DNA from: Liolophura sinensis
Lineage: Eukaryota > Mollusca > Polyplacophora > Chitonida > Chitonidae
Assembly: GCF_032854445.1 (NCBI RefSeq)
Contig: NC_088296.1
Coordinates: 3,931,246-3,995,245, forward strand
Reading direction: 5' to 3'
DNA length: 64,000 nt
Positions 50,990 through 64,000 of this stretch are shown here, piece by piece. Positions within the stretch are counted from its first letter, which is position 1, and the number at the start of each line of letters is the position of its first letter. Under the pieces are notes generated by a model. It saw nothing but the letters and a program-made list of their open reading frames with translations, was not told the DNA's origin and did no database searches. Both the position numbers and the translations under genes were made by a program.

Positions 50990-51595
50990 TCAGGCTTCCT
51001 TGCCCAATGAAAAAGTCTGTTAGACTCCAAATACAACTGTCCTAAGAAAAATCACTGGTCCATTCATTAGTAGGTCTTGTTCAATGAAACAGCTTGTAAC
51101 ATTCCAAACTCAACTGTTCTAGACAAAATCGCTGGTCCATTCATTAGTAGGTCTTGTTCAGTGAAACAGCTTGTAACATTCCAAACTCAACTGTTTTAGA
51201 CAAAATCACTGGTCCATTCATTAGTAGGTCTTGTTCAATGAAACAGCTTGTAACATTCCAAACTCAACTGTTCTAGACAAAATCGCTGGTCCATTCATTA
51301 GTAGGTCTTGTTCAATGAAACAGCTTGTAACATTCCAAACTCAACTGTTTTAGACAAAATCGTTGGTCCATTCATTAGTAGGTCTTGTTCAATGAAACAG
51401 CTTGTAACATTCCAAACTCAACTGTTCTAGACAAAATCGCTGGTCCATTCATTAGTAGGTCTTGTTCAGTGAAACAGCTTGTAACATTCCAAACTCAACT
51501 GTTCTAGACAAAATCGCTGGTCCATTCATTTGTGGATCTCGTTCAATAAGACAGTCTGTTACAAGTCACATTCAACTGTCCTGGGCAAGTATCAA
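50990..51595. repeat. 77-bp minisatellite, about 7 copies
   Basis: Unit GGTCCATTCATTAGTAGGTC, TTGTTCAATGAAACAGCTTG, TAACATTCCAAACTCAACTG, TTCTAGACAAAATCGCT. The inner five copies are almost identical; the outer copies are diverged, as expected from unequal exchange. Confidence 0.97.
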
Positions 51596-51757
51596 CGGCA
51601 CAATGGATATGATGCATAAACCTAAATATCAGAATCAAAGGACTGAATGAATTTCTGTTTTTTTCCCAGCTCATATATCCAACATCCACTCCACCCTCTC
51701 AATATCATCCATTCTATTTCAGCCAGAGAATCAATCCTCTTCACTTCTCTGGAGGCT

Positions 51758-52445
51758 TCATCATCAGAATAGTGGCTACATCATCGGAATAGTGGCTACA
51801 TCATCGGAATAGTGGCTTCATCATCAGAATAGTGGCTACATCATCAGAATAGTGGCTTCATCATCGGAATAGTGGCTACATCATCGGAATAGTGGCTACA
51901 TCATCAGAATAGTGGCTTCATCATCGGAATAGTGGCTACATCATCGGAATAGTGGCTTCATCATCAGAATAGTGGCTTCACCATCAGAATAGTGGCTACA
52001 TCATCGGAATAGTGGCTTCATCATCAGAATAGTGGCTACATCATCGGAATAGTGGGTTCATCATCAGAATAGTGGCTTCATCATCGGAATAGTGGCTTCA
52101 TCATCGGAATAGTGGCTACATCATCGGAATAATGGCTTCATCATCGGAATAGTGGCTACATCATCGGAATAGTGGCTTCATCATCAGAATAGTGGCTACA
52201 TCATCAGAATAGTGACTACATCATCAGAATAGTGGCTACATCATCAGAATAGTGGCTACATCATCAGCATAGTGGCTTCATCATCAGAATAGTGGCTACA
52301 TCATCAGAATAGTGGCTACATCATCAGAATAGTGGCTTCATCATCAGAATAGTGGCTACATCATCAGCATAGTGGCTTCATCATCAGAATAGTGGCTTCA
52401 TCATCAGAATAGTGGCTACGTCATCAGAATAGTGGCTACATCATT
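51758..52445. repeat. 20-bp minisatellite, about 34 copies
   Basis: Unit TCATC(A/G)GAATAGTGGCT(A/T)CA, in strict 20-bp register for about 690 bp. Nearly all variation is at two sites. Confidence 0.98.
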
Positions 52446-53964: not shown

Positions 53965-54063
53965 TTACGTTGTGAGGCCGTCCAGGGCGTCAGTGAAGAG
54001 CAGAATGTCAGCAAACGACATGCCCAGCCGTCTCTCCAGGGATTGGTAGAAAAATTCTGGAGC
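53965..54063 (-). CDS. ARM-TIR-SAM gene, terminal exon
   Basis: Acceptor TTATTTTTCAG|; APEFFYQSLERRLGMSFADI, LLFTDALDGLTT, TAA at 53965-53967. Completes the SAM-like helices. Confidence 0.88.
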   Translation of the reverse strand, partial: APEFFYQSLERRLGMSFADILLFTDALDGLTT

Positions 54064-57000
54064 CTGAAAAATAAAAAAAGACTAATGCACAAACTGAAAA
54101 CACAACAGACCAGGCTCAAATACTAAGGATCATTAAGTTACGTTCTATATAAATAGAAAAATGTGTAAAAAAAAATCAAGTAGGGACCACTTTCAAGGAT
54201 TTACGCCAAAGTAATAATTTTTTTTTCTGCATGGTTTTTCAAGGTCTTGAAAATGTTTCCAAAAAGTGTAAGTACTTTAAAGGATTTAAAGTAGCGATGA
54301 AACAGCCCTGTAAACGTGTCTATGAACTAGCCCCACGCGCCTGCCTGCACTCATGCCTCCGCCGCCAAAGCCGCCGCCCCACCTCCCCCACACACACACC
54401 CCACACCCGACAGAAGTTGTCAACTCACCTCCCTCCTCATCTCCCTGATCTGTCCCAACATCCGGCCATCAATGGGCGTGAACGAGGCACTCAGGCTGCA
54501 CAAAACAAACAAAGCGATCGGGTTATGGTTTCACTAAGATCTTACCTCATATGATCAAGTACATTTCACACAGATGTATGGCATCCACACCACCAGATAC
54601 CTGACAATGTGACAAACCACCTATTACCTGACAAACCTCCTCAGAGTTTTTTTCTTTCTTCTTTTTTGTTTTTTTTTTCATCAATCAGATTCCATTTGTT
54701 CATTCTTTCCATGTGTTCATAATAGCTGTAGTCCTCATTCATTTCCAAAACATTGAAAAGTATATATTCGTAAAGCCTATAAAAAGCCAAGTTTTTTCTC
54801 ACCACTTAAAAAACTTATTCCCTTTTCCAGATTTATATTTTTAATTTTATAATGGTTGGCATTAATCATCTTAATTTAATTTGGTTTTGCTTTGTATTTT
54901 GTTGAACACATATATTTTCTTTATAAATGCTAAACCTGAAATTTCATATTTTTCAAAACAACAAGACGCTCTATTTCAAACTTCTGCAAATTGCTAAACT
55001 TAATTGACACATAAAATGCATGAAAATGTCTGTGTCAATACTGCATCTGAAATTCGCCTTCATAAAAAGGTTAAAAAACACATCTGTTGAGGATACTAGC
55101 AAATGAGTGCCGTCTAGGCCCCTTTAAAACTTACTGTCCCAGACCAACATGGTGCAACCACTTGCCAACTTCCTCCCTGGTCTTGATGTGCCCGGCCGAG
55201 TTCTGATGAGGATGTGATGCATTGTGGGTAGCAAAATGATGGTGGAGGGTGGGTTCGTGGGAGTTGGGCAAGTCTACAGTTTCTGAAACAGACAAATCCC
55301 AACTTGCATTTATTTATTGGTCTGATATTTTACTGAAAACGCACAGAGACACAATTAAATATAAAAACTTTTTCCTGAGGTAATTTTCAATTCTTTTAAT
55401 TTCCTTTGATGCGTACTGTATTTCACCTATAAAGTTTAGGCTGTTTTACATGACACATACTGCTTCACTCTGGCAGATTCAACCATTTTATGGGATCACC
55501 TATTGAGCTTTTCATGAAGTTTGATCCATTTTTTGGCAGAAAAAAAACTACAGTACATGCATGGGCATCAAAAATATCATTTTAAGGCGATTATGTGATT
55601 CTCAAAATGCATTTTTTCAAGCCAAACATTTGGCAAAATACAGAATTTCATTTTGATGTTAAGACTTTATTTCAAAGCCCTAGAGTTTATAGTACATGTA
55701 CCTCCTCTGCGCGGACCATTGGGCACGCCTTTGCCTCGACCTCTCAGCTCCTTCAAAAGGCCATTGACGCTCTTCTCAAACGGGTACTTGCCGCTGAAGT
55801 CGATGTAAAGCTTGGCACCCAGGATGAGCCCTAGCCAGCCGTCGGGGCGGTACCGCTTCTGCATCATGATAGGAATGTAATCCTTCCTAAGCTGGAATGT
55901 GTACTCCGCCTCTGTGGGGAGGACAAACATGATCACATTCCATTCAAAATTACATCATAACAGGCCTCTGTGCCCGTTAAAAAAGGCTTTATTTATTTAT
56001 CTGATTGGTGTTTATGCTGTATGCAAGAATATTTCGCTTATACGACGGCAGCCAGCAATACGATGGGAGGAAACCGGGCAAAGCCTGGGGGAAACCACAA
56101 CCATCTGCAGGCTGCTGACACACCTTCCAATCTTCCAATTTACAACTGGAGAGGAAGCCAGCATGAGCTGGACGTCACTCACAGCGACAGCACTGGTGAG
56201 AGGCTCCTAGTCATTGCACTGTGTTAGCCACAAGGGCCCAAAAGGGGCATAATCCAGAGAATAAAGGAGAACAGAGATGAAAACAGTACAGAGCCTCCGC
56301 AGGAGCACACAGCATTCCCATCTAGGGTCACACGTGATTTTCTTTTATCTGATTGGTGCTGAACAATGTACAACTGTGAGTATTTCACTTATACAACAGA
56401 GTATTTCACTTATACAACAGAGTATTTCACTTATACAACAGAGTATTTCACTCACATAAAACACACAGCCAGATTCTGTGGAGGTGGAAACACATTCATA
56501 ATACAAGGAAACCAGCATTTCAAGGGGAAAACCACCCACTCCAAGAGGAAACCAGCATTTCAAGGGGAAAACCACCCACTTCAAGAGGAAACCAGCATTT
56601 CAACGGGAAAACCACCCACTCCAAGAGGAAGCCAGCATTTCAAGGGGAAAACCAACTGCATCAACAGGAAACCACTGCACATACAAGACTAACTATACTG
56701 GCATAAAATGAGAATCAAGGATGCTTATCTGCCAGTACAGCTTGTTAATGTAAGTTATTAACACCCTTGTCTTTGGGTAATAAAGTAAAAGAACGTGCCT
56801 CAACTGAGTCTACGACCTGACTGGTCAGGTGGCTGTGACAAGACCAAGGCAAGCACGGTCTTTATGGTCAGATACCAATCATTGTCAAAACAGCAAATGT
56901 CACCAAGCCTGGTAACCATGGTGGCAAGTTCCACCCACCTGTGCGACAGTTGGGGCTCTGTTTGTACTTCTCCGACATACAGATAAGTACGACGGTGGCG

Positions 57001-60000
57001 TTCTCCGTGGCTTCTGCCATCGCCTGTAGTGTGGAGCCTCCCATCTGCTCCACGTCTATCCAGATATTATAACCTTCTTTCTGTCAATAAAAACAAAAAA
57101 CAATGAATAAAGAACAAAGAATAAAGAACAATGAAAAAAGAATGCTCACATGAACTGGTTTACCTTTCAGTAAAAGATGGACTAGAGATGGAGTGAAGAT
57201 GGACTGAAGATGCACTAAAGAAGACCTAATTTGCACCTGTTGTAAAGTATCCACCAGGACCGAATTCACAAAGCCATTTCTGACTTAAGCCAAAATTTGA
57301 AAATACAATTTAGGAGCATATTCTGAGGTTCTGTACAATAAACTTTTGACCACCTTAGCAATGTTATATTAAGACAAACGTGTTAAACTGGCAACACCAA
57401 GTATCCAAAACTGTGACAATATTTTAAACTTTTGACTAGAGTCAGAAATGTCTTTGTGGAATTGGTTACTGGTCTTTGACATTTGCCAGAGATCCTATCT
57501 GGTTGTGAAATGCTGCATTTGCACACACAGTTGTGCACTTTTGAGCAAATTTTTTCAGCTCAACTTACCTGGGTACAAGAATTCTACAATGATTTTTTTA
57601 TGTATCTCCATAAGATAAAGGTGTACCAGTAAGGTAACAAAAATACACTATTGAGGAAATGAAGGCAAATGAACGCCTCCTAACCGCGATTTAAGAACCT
57701 TGGAAATCAAGCCAACTTTCACCTTCATTTTATCCCCTAATTCCTCTACCTTTTTGCAGATGACAGAGCAACTTTTAGTGCAACTTAATTTGAATTTATT
57801 TGATTTTGGCGGCAAAGCTCCTTTGATTACACTGGCCAAATTCACGGTTTCACAAACACTTTGCAAACATGCGAAAAGGTTGAACTATCAATTTTTATTT
57901 AGTTATCCAAAGTTATTTTGGATAACGATATTTGTCTACAGGTCTTATAAGGACAATTTAAAATTTCACACTTTACTGAAGTGTTCACATGCATCCTTCT
58001 TCCCCTACATTCTCTCGGTAAGCCTGATTTGTGTTTAACTGACCTTTAACCTATCGGCGATCTCCATCACGTGGACACGATCACTCCAGCTGTAGCTGAT
58101 GAACACATGACTCTTGGATGGCCCAGCTGAGCGTGGTCCTGTCAGAAACAACACCATCACCTGATTAACCGACTGATGCATTGATGGATTCATTTACTTT
58201 TCTTTAAATTGATCATTACATCCCTCACACAAGGACAGTCAAGGTTGTTTTTTGGGGAAAGCCGCTGTGAGTTCAAGTCCAGCTCATGCTGGCTTCCTCT
58301 CAGGCTGTAAGCAGGAAGGTCTTCCAGCAACCTGCGGATGGTCGTGGGTTTCCCCTGGGCTCTGCCCGGTTTCCTCCCACAATAATGCTGGCCGCCGTCA
58401 TATAAGTGAAATATTCATGAATATGCCGTAAAACACTAATAAAATAAATAAAACAAATAAATTTTTGGGAAAGGCATGTACATGTAATTTAATATATCAC
58501 TTACCTATCATCTGACCTTGTACTACAATGATTTCTGAAATACTTTCCTTACACAAGTGCAAATTTTTGGGGAGAACCATGAAGGTTTATGGATTTGAGC
58601 ACCAGCTCTATTTATTTATTCCATTGGTGTTTTACGCAGAATATTTCGCTTATGCCATGGTGGCCGGTCATATGGTAAGAGGAAACTGGGCAGAGCCCAG
58701 GGGAAACCCAGCTTGCCACAGCTATATATAAATTGCATGTTTATACCCTAGTCTTACCAGAGTGCTTGTCAGTAACAGCTTGACCAGTCTGGTCCTCGGG
58801 GCTTATTTTGAGCAGCGAAAAAATTGTGCCCTTGACCACAGGACAGGCAACCTAATGGTTCTTTGCACTAAACTTGACCTTGACTTTCCTTGCTCATGAT
58901 CTCAAAATCCAGTTTCTTCTGGTTTGTTACAGGGTTTTCATTTTAACTGCACGAGATTTGTCAGGTGACTGGGGAAGTGGGATAGTTAAATAATTACTTA
59001 AATATATTTTTTTCTTCTCACTTTATCAAGTCTGCATTTCACGCTAATGTTCGATACGTACTGTTTGGGTTATCTGCCTCTTCTCGGATGACCCATAAAG
59101 CACCAATACAACTTTTGGACAGGTTTTCGTCGGGGCTTTGCGTCATCTTCTCTAACATGTCAATGAGCTCCGTCATCTCCAGGATTTTCTGTCGCACATT
59201 TTTGTCGAAAGAAAGTGTCCAGATAGCGCGAGCGGCCATTGACTCCTCCCTAATGTCGTCGTGTTGCAACATGATCAGGAAAGACTGAAGGGCCCCTTCT
59301 TCCACAATCTGTGAAGACAAAGTAGTGAAAAGTGTGTCACAGTAGAGGTATGTGCCACAGCTGAGGTGTGTGTCACAGCTGAGGTATGTGTCTCAGTGGA
59401 GGTATGCGTCACAGCTGAGGTATGTGTCACAGCTGAGGTATGTGTCACAGTGGAGATATGTGTCACAGTGGAGGTATGTGTCACAGCTGAGGTATGTGTC
59501 ACAGTAGAGGTATGTGTCACAGTGGAGGTATGTGTCACAACTGAGGTATGTGTCACAGTAGAGGTGCGTCACAGTATATGCGTGTGTCACAGTAGATGCA
59601 TGTGTCACAGTTGAGGTTTGTGTCACAGTAGCGGTAACCACACTGAGCCACATCATGCTCCCTAATTTCACAGGTAACGAGACACCTGTGCTCATATTAA
59701 TTTTCCTACAATCACACCTGTGCTCACATTGATTCGGCCACAATCACACCTGTGTTCATGTTAATTTTTCTACAACCACACCTGTGCTCACATTGCTTCA
59801 CCCACAATCACACCTGTGCTCAAACTAATTCGCGCACAATCATACCTGAGCTCACATTGATTCGCTCACAACCACACCTGAGCTCATATTGATTCGCCCA
59901 CAATTACACCTGGACTCACATGGATTTGCCCACAATCACACCTGTGCTCATACTGATTCGCCTACAATCACATGTGTGCTCAAATTGATTCGCCCACAAT

Positions 60001-61299
60001 CACACCTGTGCTTACACTGACTCGAGTTAATTTTCCTACAACCACTCCTGTGCTCACATTGATTTGCCCACAATCACACCTGTGCTCACACTGATTCGCC
60101 TACAATCACATCTGTGCTCAAATTGATTCGCCCACAATCACACCTGTGCTCACACTGACTCGAGTTAATTTTCCTACAACCACTCCTGTGCTCACATTGA
60201 TTCGCCCACAATCACACCTGGGCTCACACTGATTCGCCCACAATCACACCTGTGCTCACCTTGATTCGCCCACTATCACACCTGTGCTCATGTTAATTTT
60301 CCTACAACCATGCCTGTCCTCACCTTGATTATCCAACAACCACACCTGTGTTCACCTTGATTATCCTACAACCACACCTGTGCTCACACTGATTATCTCA
60401 CAACCACACCTGAGTTCACATTGATTATCCTACAACCACACCTGTGCTCACCTTGATTATCCAACAACCACACCTGAGCTCATATTCATTATCCTTCAAT
60501 CACACCTGAGCTCATTTTGATTACCCTACAACCATAACTGTGCTCACCTTGATTTTATTGCTGTCATTCACAGCCAGCTTGTCCAGCCCCTGGGTGAGTT
60601 CCTGGGGGGTAAACCCTCGGTACCTGCGCTTTGGATTGGACAGGGCTTTACTCAGCCACTCACACACACATTTTATTACACCTGGAATACGAATTAAACA
60701 ACTGATTTATTTATCAGATAATTGACTTCTAAATACAAGATGTGCTCCACGTACATTTTTGAAAATCAAATAGGCATAAATTCCAACACTGACAAATCAA
60801 CACCTGGCAAAATTTGTAGACAATCAAATTTCAATGTACCATATTTTCTGTGACTATATTTATTTATTTATTTATTTATTTGATTGGTGTTTTACACCGT
60901 ACTCAATATTTCACTTATACGACGGCGGTCAGCACTATGGTGGGTGGAAACCGGGCACAGTCCAGGGGAAACCCACGACCATCCACAGGTTGCTGGCAAA
61001 CCTTCCCACTTAGGGCTAGAGAGAAAGGCAGCATGAGCTGGACTTGAACTCACAGCGACTGCTGCGCTAGTGCGCTAACCATCTGAGCCACCGAGTGCCT
61101 TACCTGTGACTATATAATTTGCAGTGAACATAAACAGTGGCCCAATATAAGTATACAGGTACATGTACGCAAACATTTCAATCTCACCGGTTTCGTCAAT
61201 AAGTGTGCTGTTTTCATCTTCATCTACGACGTAAGCCAGAGTCAACATGGCCAGAGCTTTCAGCATTTCGTCAGAGTTTTCAATGAACGGTCTTATAAC
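53965..61299 (-). CDS. ARM-TIR-SAM-like protein gene (3' nine exons, 5' end missing)
   Basis: Joined exons (high to low): 61299-61188, 60681-60548, 59308-59062, 58138-58044, 57080-56939, 55911-55702, 55282-55135, 54495-54429, 54063-53965. Total is 1254 bp, 417 codons plus stop, and every junction is GT-AG with matching phase. Visible residues 1-164 are armadillo repeats (ARAIWTLSFDKNVRQKIL). Residues 174-306 are a TIR domain: SHVFISYSWSDR start, BB-loop-like WIDVEQMGGS, then VVLICMSEKYKQSPNCRTE. A His-rich linker follows, and residues ~350-412 are SAM-like (VGKWLHHVGLG...PIDGRMLGQI). The Glu at residue 244 aligns by spacing (E-x12-P) with the catalytic Glu of SARM1, from memory, so NAD cleavage is possible. 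SARM1 is ARM-SAM-SAM-TIR; here the SAM-like part is last. Probably a cytoplasmic innate-immune or stress sensor. No signal peptide or membrane segment visible. Confidence 0.9.
54429..54495 (-). CDS. ARM-TIR-SAM gene, SAM-like exon 2
   Basis: 67 bp. TTTTGTGCAG| acceptor, GGGAG|GTGAGT donor. LSASFTPIDGRMLGQIREMR, RE; the IDG..L motif is typical of the middle of SAM domains. Confidence 0.88.
55135..55282 (-). CDS. ARM-TIR-SAM gene, linker and SAM-like exon 1
   Basis: 148 bp. CTGTTTCAG| acceptor, GGGACA|GTAAGT donor. A His-rich linker (HHHFATHNASHPHQN) followed by EEVGKWLHHVGLG. Confidence 0.88.
55702..55911 (-). CDS. ARM-TIR-SAM gene, C-terminal TIR exon
   Basis: 210 bp. CCTCCCCACAG| acceptor, GAGGAG|GTACAT donor (non-consensus but GT). 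AEYTFQLRKDYIPIMMQKRY, RPDGWLGLILGAKLYIDFSG, KYPFEKSVNGLLKEL, then a basic Gly/Arg stretch. Confidence 0.92.
55988..56238 (-). mobile_element. SINE-A, nearly full length, intronic
   Basis: TTTATTTATTTATCTGATTG, GGCAGCCAGCAATACGATGG, GAGGAAGCCAGCATGAGCTG, ending in a decayed head (TGTTAGCCACAAGGGCCC). Same strand as the host gene. Confidence 0.92.
56340..56458 (-). repeat. SINE-A stub expanded into a 21-bp array
   Basis: A SINE-A tail remnant (TTTTATCTGATTGGTGCTGA) leads into GAGTATTTCACTTATACAAC repeated four times at 21 bp. The repeated word is the SINE's own ATATTTCACTTATACGACGG segment. Confidence 0.9.
56508..56680. repeat. 40-bp minisatellite, 4 copies
   Basis: Unit GGAAACCAGCATTTCAAGGG, GAAAACCACCCACTCCAAGA. 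Intronic. The GGAAACC(A/C)(A/G) words resemble the SINE-A GGAAACCGGGC segment, but descent from it is uncertain. Confidence 0.95.
56939..57080 (-). CDS. ARM-TIR-SAM gene, central TIR exon
   Basis: 142 bp. TTATTGACAG| acceptor, CACAG|GTGGGT donor. KEGYNIWIDVEQMGGSTLQA, MAEATENATVVLICMSEKYK, QSPNCRT. Holds the BB loop and strand D. The codon for the candidate catalytic Glu is split across the following intron (G|AG). Confidence 0.93.
57254..57472. mobile_element. MITE-like element with ~33-bp terminal inverted repeats
   Basis: Left end CCAGGACCGAATTCACAAAG, CCATTTCTGACTTAAGCC. The right end, reverse complemented, is CCAGTAACCAATTCCACAAA, GACATTTCTGACTCTAGTC. About 219 bp, AT-rich and non-coding inside. 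Single ends of the same type occur near 35453 and 48957. Intronic to the ARM-TIR-SAM gene. Confidence 0.75.
58044..58138 (-). CDS. ARM-TIR-SAM gene, N-terminal TIR exon
   Basis: 95 bp. GTTTCTGACAG| acceptor, TTAAAG|GTCAGT donor. RPRSAGPSKSHVFISYSWSD, RVHVMEIADRLK; HVFISYSWSD is the classic TIR box 1. Confidence 0.93.
58257..58462 (+). mobile_element. SINE-A lacking the first ~60 bp, intronic
   Basis: GCTGTGAGTTCAAGTCCAGC (B box kept, A box lost), CTTCCTCTCAGGCTGTAAGC, ACACTAATAAAATAAATAAA. Confidence 0.92.
58608..58716 (-). mobile_element. SINE-A, truncated, intronic
   Basis: TCTATTTATTTATTCCATTG, GTGTTTTACGCAGAATATTT, GGAAACTGGGCAGAGCCCAG. Confidence 0.88.
59062..59308 (-). CDS. ARM-TIR-SAM gene, ARM exon 3
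   Basis: 247 bp. TTGTCTTCACAG| acceptor, CCAAACA|GTACGT donor. IVEEGALQSFLIMLQHDDIR, EESMAARAIWTLSFDKNVRQ, KILEMTELIDMLEKM, NLSKSCIGALWVIREE: about two armadillo repeats. Confidence 0.93.
59330..59637. repeat. 18-bp minisatellite, about 17 copies, intronic
   Basis: Unit GAGGTATGTGTCACAGCT (CT or TG/TA at the end). It begins 22 bp upstream (minus sense) of the ARM exon 3 acceptor, so it sits where branch point and polypyrimidine tract should be. Confidence 0.96.
59675..60545. repeat. ~31-bp minisatellite, about 27 copies, intronic
   Basis: Unit CAATCACACCTGTGCTCACA, TTGATTCGCCCA. A longer unit of about 143 bp beginning GACTCGAGTTAATTTTCCTA is itself duplicated (60018 and 60155). The array reaches to the donor of ARM exon 2: its CTGTGCTCACCTTGATT word contains the splice-donor complement. 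Confidence 0.95.
60548..60681 (-). CDS. ARM-TIR-SAM gene, ARM exon 2
   Basis: 134 bp. CGTATTCCAG| acceptor, ATCAAG|GTGAGC donor. VIKCVCEWLSKALSNPKRRY, RGFTPQELTQGLDKLAVNDS, NKIK; fits the inter-repeat helices of an armadillo fold. Confidence 0.92.
60857..61102 (-). mobile_element. SINE-A, nearly full length, intronic
   Basis: TATTTATTTATTTATTTATT, GACGGCGGTCAGCACTATGG, CATGAGCTGGACTTGAACTC, CGCTAACCATCTGAGCCACC. Lies 85 bp downstream (minus sense) of ARM exon 1. Confidence 0.95.
61188..61299 (-). CDS. ARM-TIR-SAM gene, ARM exon 1 (first visible exon)
   Basis: 112 bp. GTTAACTTGCAG| acceptor, GAAACCG|GTGAGA donor. VIRPFIENSDEMLKALAMLT, LAYVVDEDENSTLIDET. It starts in phase 0 after an acceptor, so at least one upstream coding exon exists, beyond what I can identify. 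Confidence 0.92.
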
Positions 61300-62976: not shown

Positions 62977-63375
62977 TTTACTACCCAAACTCCATATGCC
63001 CATATGCCCATACTTATATTGCCTTCACCCTACCCTTTCGGCATGACCTCCTTTTCAGCTGCTGACCTCATTATACCGATAAATTTATTCTCCTCACAGT
63101 CCGTACTTGCCTCCAATCCTAAACTGACGGCCAAAAGAAACTTTACAAAGAGTTCAAATCAATTTATTTTGCCAAAGCAAAACACAGGATGACCGAAGTT
63201 TAATATATTGAGAAGACCAATGACTTTAGATATTGAAAGTCTTGAGTAAGAAGGGACAAAGCAGCCCTCAAATCATTTTACAAGTGAACGAACAGAGCAC
63301 GGGTAGAAAAATAGCCATTCCATCTTAGTTAACAATGGGAAGAGTATACAAAAAGTTGATTATTTTTAAAATCAG
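62977..63375. other. unassigned stretch
   Basis: No gene seen. May include the non-coding end of the Tc1-like element that follows. Confidence 0.4.
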
Positions 63376-63377
63376 TC

Positions 63378-64000
63378 GATATCAAAACCAATCAATTCTG
63401 CACGTGGCCAACCCATGCAAAAACTCATAGAGTAAAACAACATAGAGAAAGCCAGTTGTCTGATGAGATGACGTGCGATTCCTTGCCATCCATCTTGGAG
63501 AGCGAACACCTGTTCTTGTCCGTTTGCTGCAAGATGTGGCCGTTGTCTTACTAGACGACCCATGATATCCCAAAGGTGATCTATGGGGGGCATATCTGGG
63601 GGGCATATCTGGGGAACATGCAGGCCAGGGCAAGACTTTGACTTCGTTGGAGTCCAGGAAGTTCTGCTCAAGCTGTATGGGGTCTGCTGGTACAGGGCAC
63701 CACATGGTTGAAGGAATGGCAAGACAACAGGACGTAGAATTTCATCCACGTAACGTTGAGCTGTAAGGTTCCCGTAGATGATGACCAGTGGTGTCGGCTC
63801 CTCTCCACAAATACCAACCCACACCATCAAGCTGGCGCCACCAAACAGTACCACCTCCTGGATGCATGATGCAGCCGTTCGTTGGCCTCTTCAAAGGTAA
63901 ACTCGCTGTCTGCCATCGGTTCGGAACAGACAGAAGCAGTTTTCATCCATGAAAACAACACGCCAATCACGTCACTGCCAACGACATACAATTCGAGCTC
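63378..64000 (-). pseudogene. Tc1-family transposase, broken, runs off the right edge
   Basis: Minus-strand pieces: VVFMDENCFCLF (first catalytic Asp region, ~63930), FGGASLMVWVGICGEEPTPL with VIIYGNLTAQRYVDEILRPV (63700-63850), then in a second frame SNEVKVLPWPACSPDMPP and back in the first frame DHLWDIMGRLVRQRP. The DNARPH segment with the second catalytic Asp is missing. A 13-bp duplication (GGGGGGCATATCT) at about 63587-63612 and frame changes break the gene. Typical DDE_3 transposase of the Tc1/mariner superfamily, inactive here. Terminal repeats not identified. Confidence 0.9.

Follow-up and report, generated by a model that had tools for sequence, protein, structure and literature searches.

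An armadillo-TIR gene family with a probable SAM-like tail in Liolophura sinensis

The gene and its paralogs

The window, by which we mean the whole 64,000-nucleotide stretch analysed, corresponds to C2:3931246-3995245 in the 609-Mb genome of Liolophura sinensis. A splice reading of its minus strand between 53965 and 61299 gave nine exons (a to i) with agreeing phases, whose joined product is 417 residues long. The acceptors are AG and the donors GT, exon i ending in a stop instead. Exons a (61188..61299), which begins the 417 visible residues, and b (60548..60681) encode ARM repeats and were placed by splice sites, phase and paralog matches, while exon c (59062..59308; splice sites, phase, Pfam) encodes the last repeats; a Pfam Arm match at residues 76-115 straddles exons b and c. 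The TIR domain starts with FISYSW in exon d (58044..58138; splice sites, phase, Pfam) and runs through exon e (56939..57080; WIDVEQM ... NCRT) and exon f (55702..55911; EAEY ... DGWLG; splice sites, phase, Pfam, alignments). Exon f is the exon of Glu244, the codon of which is divided by the intron between the fifth and sixth exon. Exon g (55135..55282) carries a linker and the first SAM-like helix (REEVGKWL), exon h (54429..54495) continues the SAM-like part, as judged from splice sites, intron phases and the tail alignment, and exon i (53965..54063) encodes the end of the SAM-like tail, stop codon included.

The ARM part extends in phase through four upstream exons on the same minus strand, up to 18 kb past the window, at C2:4001115-4001213, C2:4010239-4010319, C2:4011423-4011553 and C2:4013076-4013226, each recognized by weak paralog matches and open frames. 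With these four the coding part amounts to 571 residues up to the stop. A further candidate exon lies above them at about C2:4014.7-4015.2 kb, where overlapping open frames offer no simple join; it probably encodes a disordered region. Searches by tblastn with five, and then eight, paralog N-terminal queries did not find a start exon. The joining of the nine exons in phase, first suggested by a sequence-only reading of the window, is borne out by the AG/GT sites, the phases and six paralogs of equal domain order, and we consider the exon chain and its ARM-TIR content real with near certainty for a gene predicted from DNA.

Two kinds of repetitive sequence were seen in the same region. Tc1-type transposase-like frames (by eye) lie in an intron of this gene at 63372-64000 (minus) of the window, continuing into the adjoining stretch (L001). 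Long minisatellites are located at 51005-51554 (77-base unit), 51754-52444 (20), 59333-59629 (18) and 59682-60554 (32), the last two taking up a large part of the b-c intron.

Pfam detected TIR_2 at residues 176-294 (6.4e-26, cut-off passed). Arm passed its cut-off of 20.6 bits when the ARM part was scanned alone (22.0 and 21.2 bits) and fell under it on the whole chain (18.0 bits), and SAM_1 stayed under its cut-off both on the whole chain (0.037) and on the tail alone (0.005). An HMM search for all three domains, proposed with the original reading, has thus been successful for TIR_2 and, on the ARM part alone, for Arm, but not for the SAM_1 match of the window protein. A family ARM profile, built from 6/7 genes with C8a left out, matched armadillo proteins in the PDB (best 7.7e-33). 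No Death domain, a feature of MyD88, was found by Pfam in the residues scanned, all of them downstream of the N-terminus.

Using the 417-residue product as query, sets of exon matches were located at C1:71.05, C3:7.93, 7.95, 7.97 and 3.01, and C8:26.92 Mb, and spliced alignment produced ARM-TIR-tail models at 6/6 of these loci. Most of the models come from queries in which a tail was present, and they include some chance pieces, most of all C8a, where some of the 19 pieces are surely due to chance. Two additional queries brought up no other close member, and the matches at C8:55.18 and C7:19.56 Mb were weaker. The genome therefore contains at least seven predicted ARM-TIR-SAM-like genes, seven being a lower bound, so that the suspected membership in a multigene family is confirmed by six further genes of equal order.

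The seven family TIRs have a mean column identity of 63%, with CR-x-EAEY and DGWLG invariant. The intron that follows exon e, before EAEY, is in phase 1 in 7/7 family models. Within the tail, an intron past the first helix has an acceptor-side phase of 2 in 6/7 (it was missed in the C8a model), and the intron before APE-FY is in phase 0 in 6/7, C1 having no intron there. Since a stop lies no more than one residue from the aligned tail end in the window gene and all six paralogs (7/7), the tail is expected to be the true C-terminus. Candidate starts were observed in three paralogs, namely MGSNSA (L005, C3:7.947 Mb), with a second Met directly before it, MGAAAS (L008, C3:7.977 Mb) and MGSSPS (L010, C3:3.018 Mb). 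We take these to resemble N-myristoylation signals, which would anchor the three proteins to membranes.

From a prokaryotic genome collection, one pattern scan yielded 12 pattern stretches and a single relative, in JAIYDP010000408.1 (L023:2-3457); a scan of viral contigs yielded 68 pattern stretches and no relative. The contig that encodes the relative measures 12 kb and is assigned to a pond MAG of Verrucomicrobiaceae; the TIR of the relative is 44% identical. The frame of the relative is 2205 residues long (on L028) and ends in CMLL, presumably a CaaX-like motif. The last 1151 residues match TIR_2 (1.3e-19) and, under the cut-off, Arm (18.3 bits), and a separate scan of what follows the TIR gave SAM_1 at 0.028 and SAM_2 at 0.037, each under its cut-off. 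A second contig of the bin carries another such TIR (L027). The G+C content of 60.4% falls within the 50.5% to 67.0% range of other stretches of the bin, so composition does not decide the origin of the contig. Beyond the gene there are frames of 230, 182, 179 and 163 residues (150 or more counted), and one of 401 residues overlaps the gene on the opposite strand. Perhaps this is a protist contig placed in the wrong bin.

Catalytic-site residues and a possible activity of the TIR domain

Glu244 had been singled out as a possible counterpart of the catalytic Glu of SARM1, and in alignment and spacing the two do correspond: hhalign places Glu244 on SARM1 E642 (probability 89.6%, E 1.9e-6), and the Glu-to-Pro spacing is 13 residues in the window protein, equal to that of SARM1 E642-P655. 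The diagnostic value of the residue did not survive: it is also present, within W-C-x-x-E (by eye), in 8/8 TIR segments from this genome that are Toll-type or similar; "Toll-type" is our own label, and the eight segments come from ten comparison TIR loci (L030-L039), of which L034 and L035 yielded no segment and are uncounted. The Glu is found in over 70% of all TIRs surveyed, according to the excerpted text of PMC7075850, and at such frequencies it permits catalysis but does not show it. All nine TIRs of the seven family genes and the two MAG contigs keep it, and the TIR at C7:22.13 Mb has Asp at the equivalent place.

Around this position the agreement with SARM1 is partial. Residues identical to Y568 and D594 occupy the aligned family positions (hhalign), G601 stands opposite Ser, W638, H640 and K628 stand opposite alignment gaps, and the family has a shorter loop ahead of the Glu. 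Four residues before the Glu the seven family TIRs have N, N, N, N, Y, A and S, with Trp in none. Excerpts of PMC8266388 report that mutation of several of these SARM1 residues lowers SARM1 activity, and that TIRs without a certain loop, by context the SS loop, are inactive. Hydrolysis of NAD+ by the window protein is plausible.

Comparison of the family TIR profile with the PDB returned the NADase-type Cat1 (9mud) as best match at 2.2e-10. Next came a SEFIR protein (5e-4), RPS4 (0.0014), entries of SARM1/tir-1 (from 0.0027) and a cyclic-ADP-ribose enzyme (0.0031), and after these MyD88 (from 0.014) and TLR1 (from 0.018). The ranking gives thin support for enzymatic function, because several full-length SARM1 entries (0.05-0.08) and the plant TIRs RPV1, Roq1 and RUN1 (0.65-1.4) trail MyD88. 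In the excerpt available of PMC13142454, 1/3 amoeba TIR proteins were active as NADase in a plain assay. We would put the chance that the family TIR acts as an enzyme at even.

Somewhat below this we rank a non-enzymatic adaptor, in which the TIR would bind the TIRs of Toll-like receptors and MyD88, and the other two parts, ARM and SAM-like, would serve as the scaffold of a signalling complex. Adaptor or regulator roles are hypothesized for such TIR proteins in survey passages (excerpts of PMC6321704 and PMC9334734), and a Glu that is common outside enzymes, together with the missing W638, would suit them, yet Cat1 as the best PDB relative points the other way. So does the motif after beta-B, which is WIDVEQM in the family and near SARM1 FIDVEKL, versus RDF in 6/8 of the Toll-type or similar segments (by eye). 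Partners for an adaptor are likely to exist, because the genome holds 117 TIR_2 matches (exon matches); many of them lie in one open frame each, 800-1200 residues long, and they probably represent a large Toll-type repertoire.

The C-terminal tail and the relation to SARM1

When the seven tails were aligned, WL was invariant at the end of the first helix and was followed by a GxxLxFLxxL stretch and then by APExFY. The tail profile gave 35 PDB matches (E up to 10, best E 5.8e-5), 32 of them SAM or Pointed by title, where some constructs, such as 2d8c and 2e8m, are assumed to be SAM domains; most matches span just about the first 40 positions. ETV6/TEL, the SAM domain of which forms polymers, accounts for 18 of the 32. 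The reversed alignment had one match, not to a SAM domain (0/1); this control was built from an earlier tail alignment differing by three letters in one row, for which the forward count was 26/30 SAM or Pointed. Using Pfam, one of the seven tails passes a SAM cut-off (C3c, SAM_2, 22.5 versus 20.5 bits), three match a SAM model under the cut-off (window, C3a, C3b) and three have no Pfam SAM match (C1, C3d, C8a), as is the case for three reversed tails. AlphaFold2 was run on 285 residues of the MAG-contig homolog, TIR through SAM-like part, adding three window exons to the alignment; at pLDDT 39.9 and pTM 0.24 the model was set aside. The tail is very likely SAM-like, and probably of SAM or Pointed type. 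The order ARM-TIR-SAM-like claimed for this locus is upheld by the exon chain, Pfam, the tail profile and the six paralogs; its stated difference from SARM1 also stands, the TIR being internal and the SAM-like tail last.

It is very improbable that the chain is wrong, with a tail taken from another transcript or not a SAM domain at all. The exon joins are predictions from DNA, single-sequence SAM scores are weak and hhalign found no match between the tail and any of three single SAM-type sequences (0.2-3.6%); nevertheless, the tail follows the TIR in 6/6 paralog models (the search query already contained the tail), intron phases are common to the family, the stops fall at an equal place, and the tail profile collects SAM-rich matches while its reversed control is clean.

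A human SARM1 TIR query detected two other genes, at C7:52.77 and C10:19.91 Mb, with 48-52% in the best exons, and in both the frame before the TIR resembles the second SARM1 SAM (by eye, not by domain search). A further SARM1 candidate at C7:22.13-22.14 Mb, where a SAM match lies near a TIR match, was rejected on its domain layout: TIR-like, SAM and TIR-like parts share one frame (L019:8346-9920, minus), with a further TIR downstream at L019:954-1466 (minus), all by eye.

Phylogenetic analysis of 23 TIR rows grouped the seven family and two MAG-contig TIRs at 97/99 and the SARM1 pair at 98/93; the tree is small, its base is weak (69/64), it has two long branches, it leaves the seven family TIRs unresolved from the MAG contigs, and it has no row for L022, the other of the two SARM1-type genes, or for the second TIR at C8:55.18 Mb. 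A constraint uniting the seven family, two MAG-contig and SARM1 TIRs (eleven), fixed before the tree was seen, was rejected (p-AU 0.028). Very probably, the family TIR belongs to a lineage apart from SARM1. That the gene is a SARM1 copy with SAM pair and TIR swapped would explain the three equal domain kinds and the alignment of its Glu with E642, but we regard this as very improbable, given the two separate SARM1-type genes, the tree with its rejected joint group, the absence of SARM1 among the best 60 of 197 PDB matches to the family ARM profile, and a tail that hhalign does not align with the SAM-like frame of this genome's SARM1.

Proposed function and comparison with known proteins

We propose that the protein is probably a cytosolic innate-immunity or cell-stress factor of the invertebrate ARM-TIR class. 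The best explanation overall, with a probability of about 0.5, is an ARM-held TIR enzyme clustered through its SAM-like tail. The ARM solenoid would sense a signal or keep the TIR inactive; release of the TIR and clustering of the tail would bring the TIRs into close packing, after which the site at and near Glu244 could cleave NAD+ or a related nucleotide. This working mode would be like that of SARM1 or a plant TIR receptor, yet the protein would not be a SARM1. The ARM lock and the altered activation geometry suggested by the sequence-only reading belong to this hypothetical part. We consider it rather doubtful that the ARM-TIR-SAM proteins form another family of TIR enzymes gated by armadillo repeats, ancient and present in animals and at least one microbe, with a toolkit acquired independently of SARM1, in which a C-terminal Pointed-like SAM clusters the protein instead of a central SAM ring and some members are perhaps tied to membranes by a myristoylation-like N-terminus.

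Proteins combining ARM and TIR are already a named, uncharacterised class. In Aplysia it is counted as 11 in Table 5 and as 10 in the text of PMC9334734, and the ecTIR-DC classes of Gerdol 2017 are cited in PMC6321704 and PMC6836662, the latter describing one class with ARM, Death and two TIRs (all three as excerpts). The window family resembles these proteins in having armadillo repeats and a TIR in one protein, in having several genes per genome and in being uncharacterised; it differs in its SAM tail, unmentioned for known ARM-TIR proteins in those excerpts. The order ARM-TIR-SAM was not found in the literature searched, which does not include the bivalve TIR survey of Gerdol 2017, where the SAM tail may already have been described. 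An atlas of eukaryotic TIRs has six clades without a characterised member (excerpt of PMC13142454).

IPR000157 and IPR001660 denote TIR and SAM. The rule by which the Aplysia survey assigns "SARM" from domain content (IPR000157 + IPR001660; excerpt of PMC9334734) could misname ARM-TIR-SAM genes.

TIR and SAM are also joined in a single gene in amphioxus Brafl1_131196, from which a transcript was recovered (excerpt of PMC2575513), and the term TIR-SAM also occurs in PMC10242710, on Arabidopsis. Besides being the best PDB relative (2.2e-10), Cat1 (9mud) shares the C-x-x-E spacing at the Glu, but it has a W four residues before the Glu, which the window family lacks. Cat1 is a CRISPR-associated TIR, a prokaryotic effector with another sensor.

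SARM1/TIR-1 has the same kinds of domains, ARM, SAM and TIR, an aligned Glu and the residues Y568 and D594 in common with the family. The SAM pair of SARM1 is central and its TIR C-terminal (excerpts of PMC8635717 and PMC7075850), whereas the family TIR is internal, of another lineage and followed by a single SAM-like tail, and two SARM1 features, W638 and a longer loop ahead of the Glu, are missing. In animals, the ARM-gated TIR enzyme that has been studied well is SARM1. A family apart from it that has like parts reordered would provide a natural test of which elements of its control, such as restraint by ARM and clustering by SAM, are general and which are special to SARM1.
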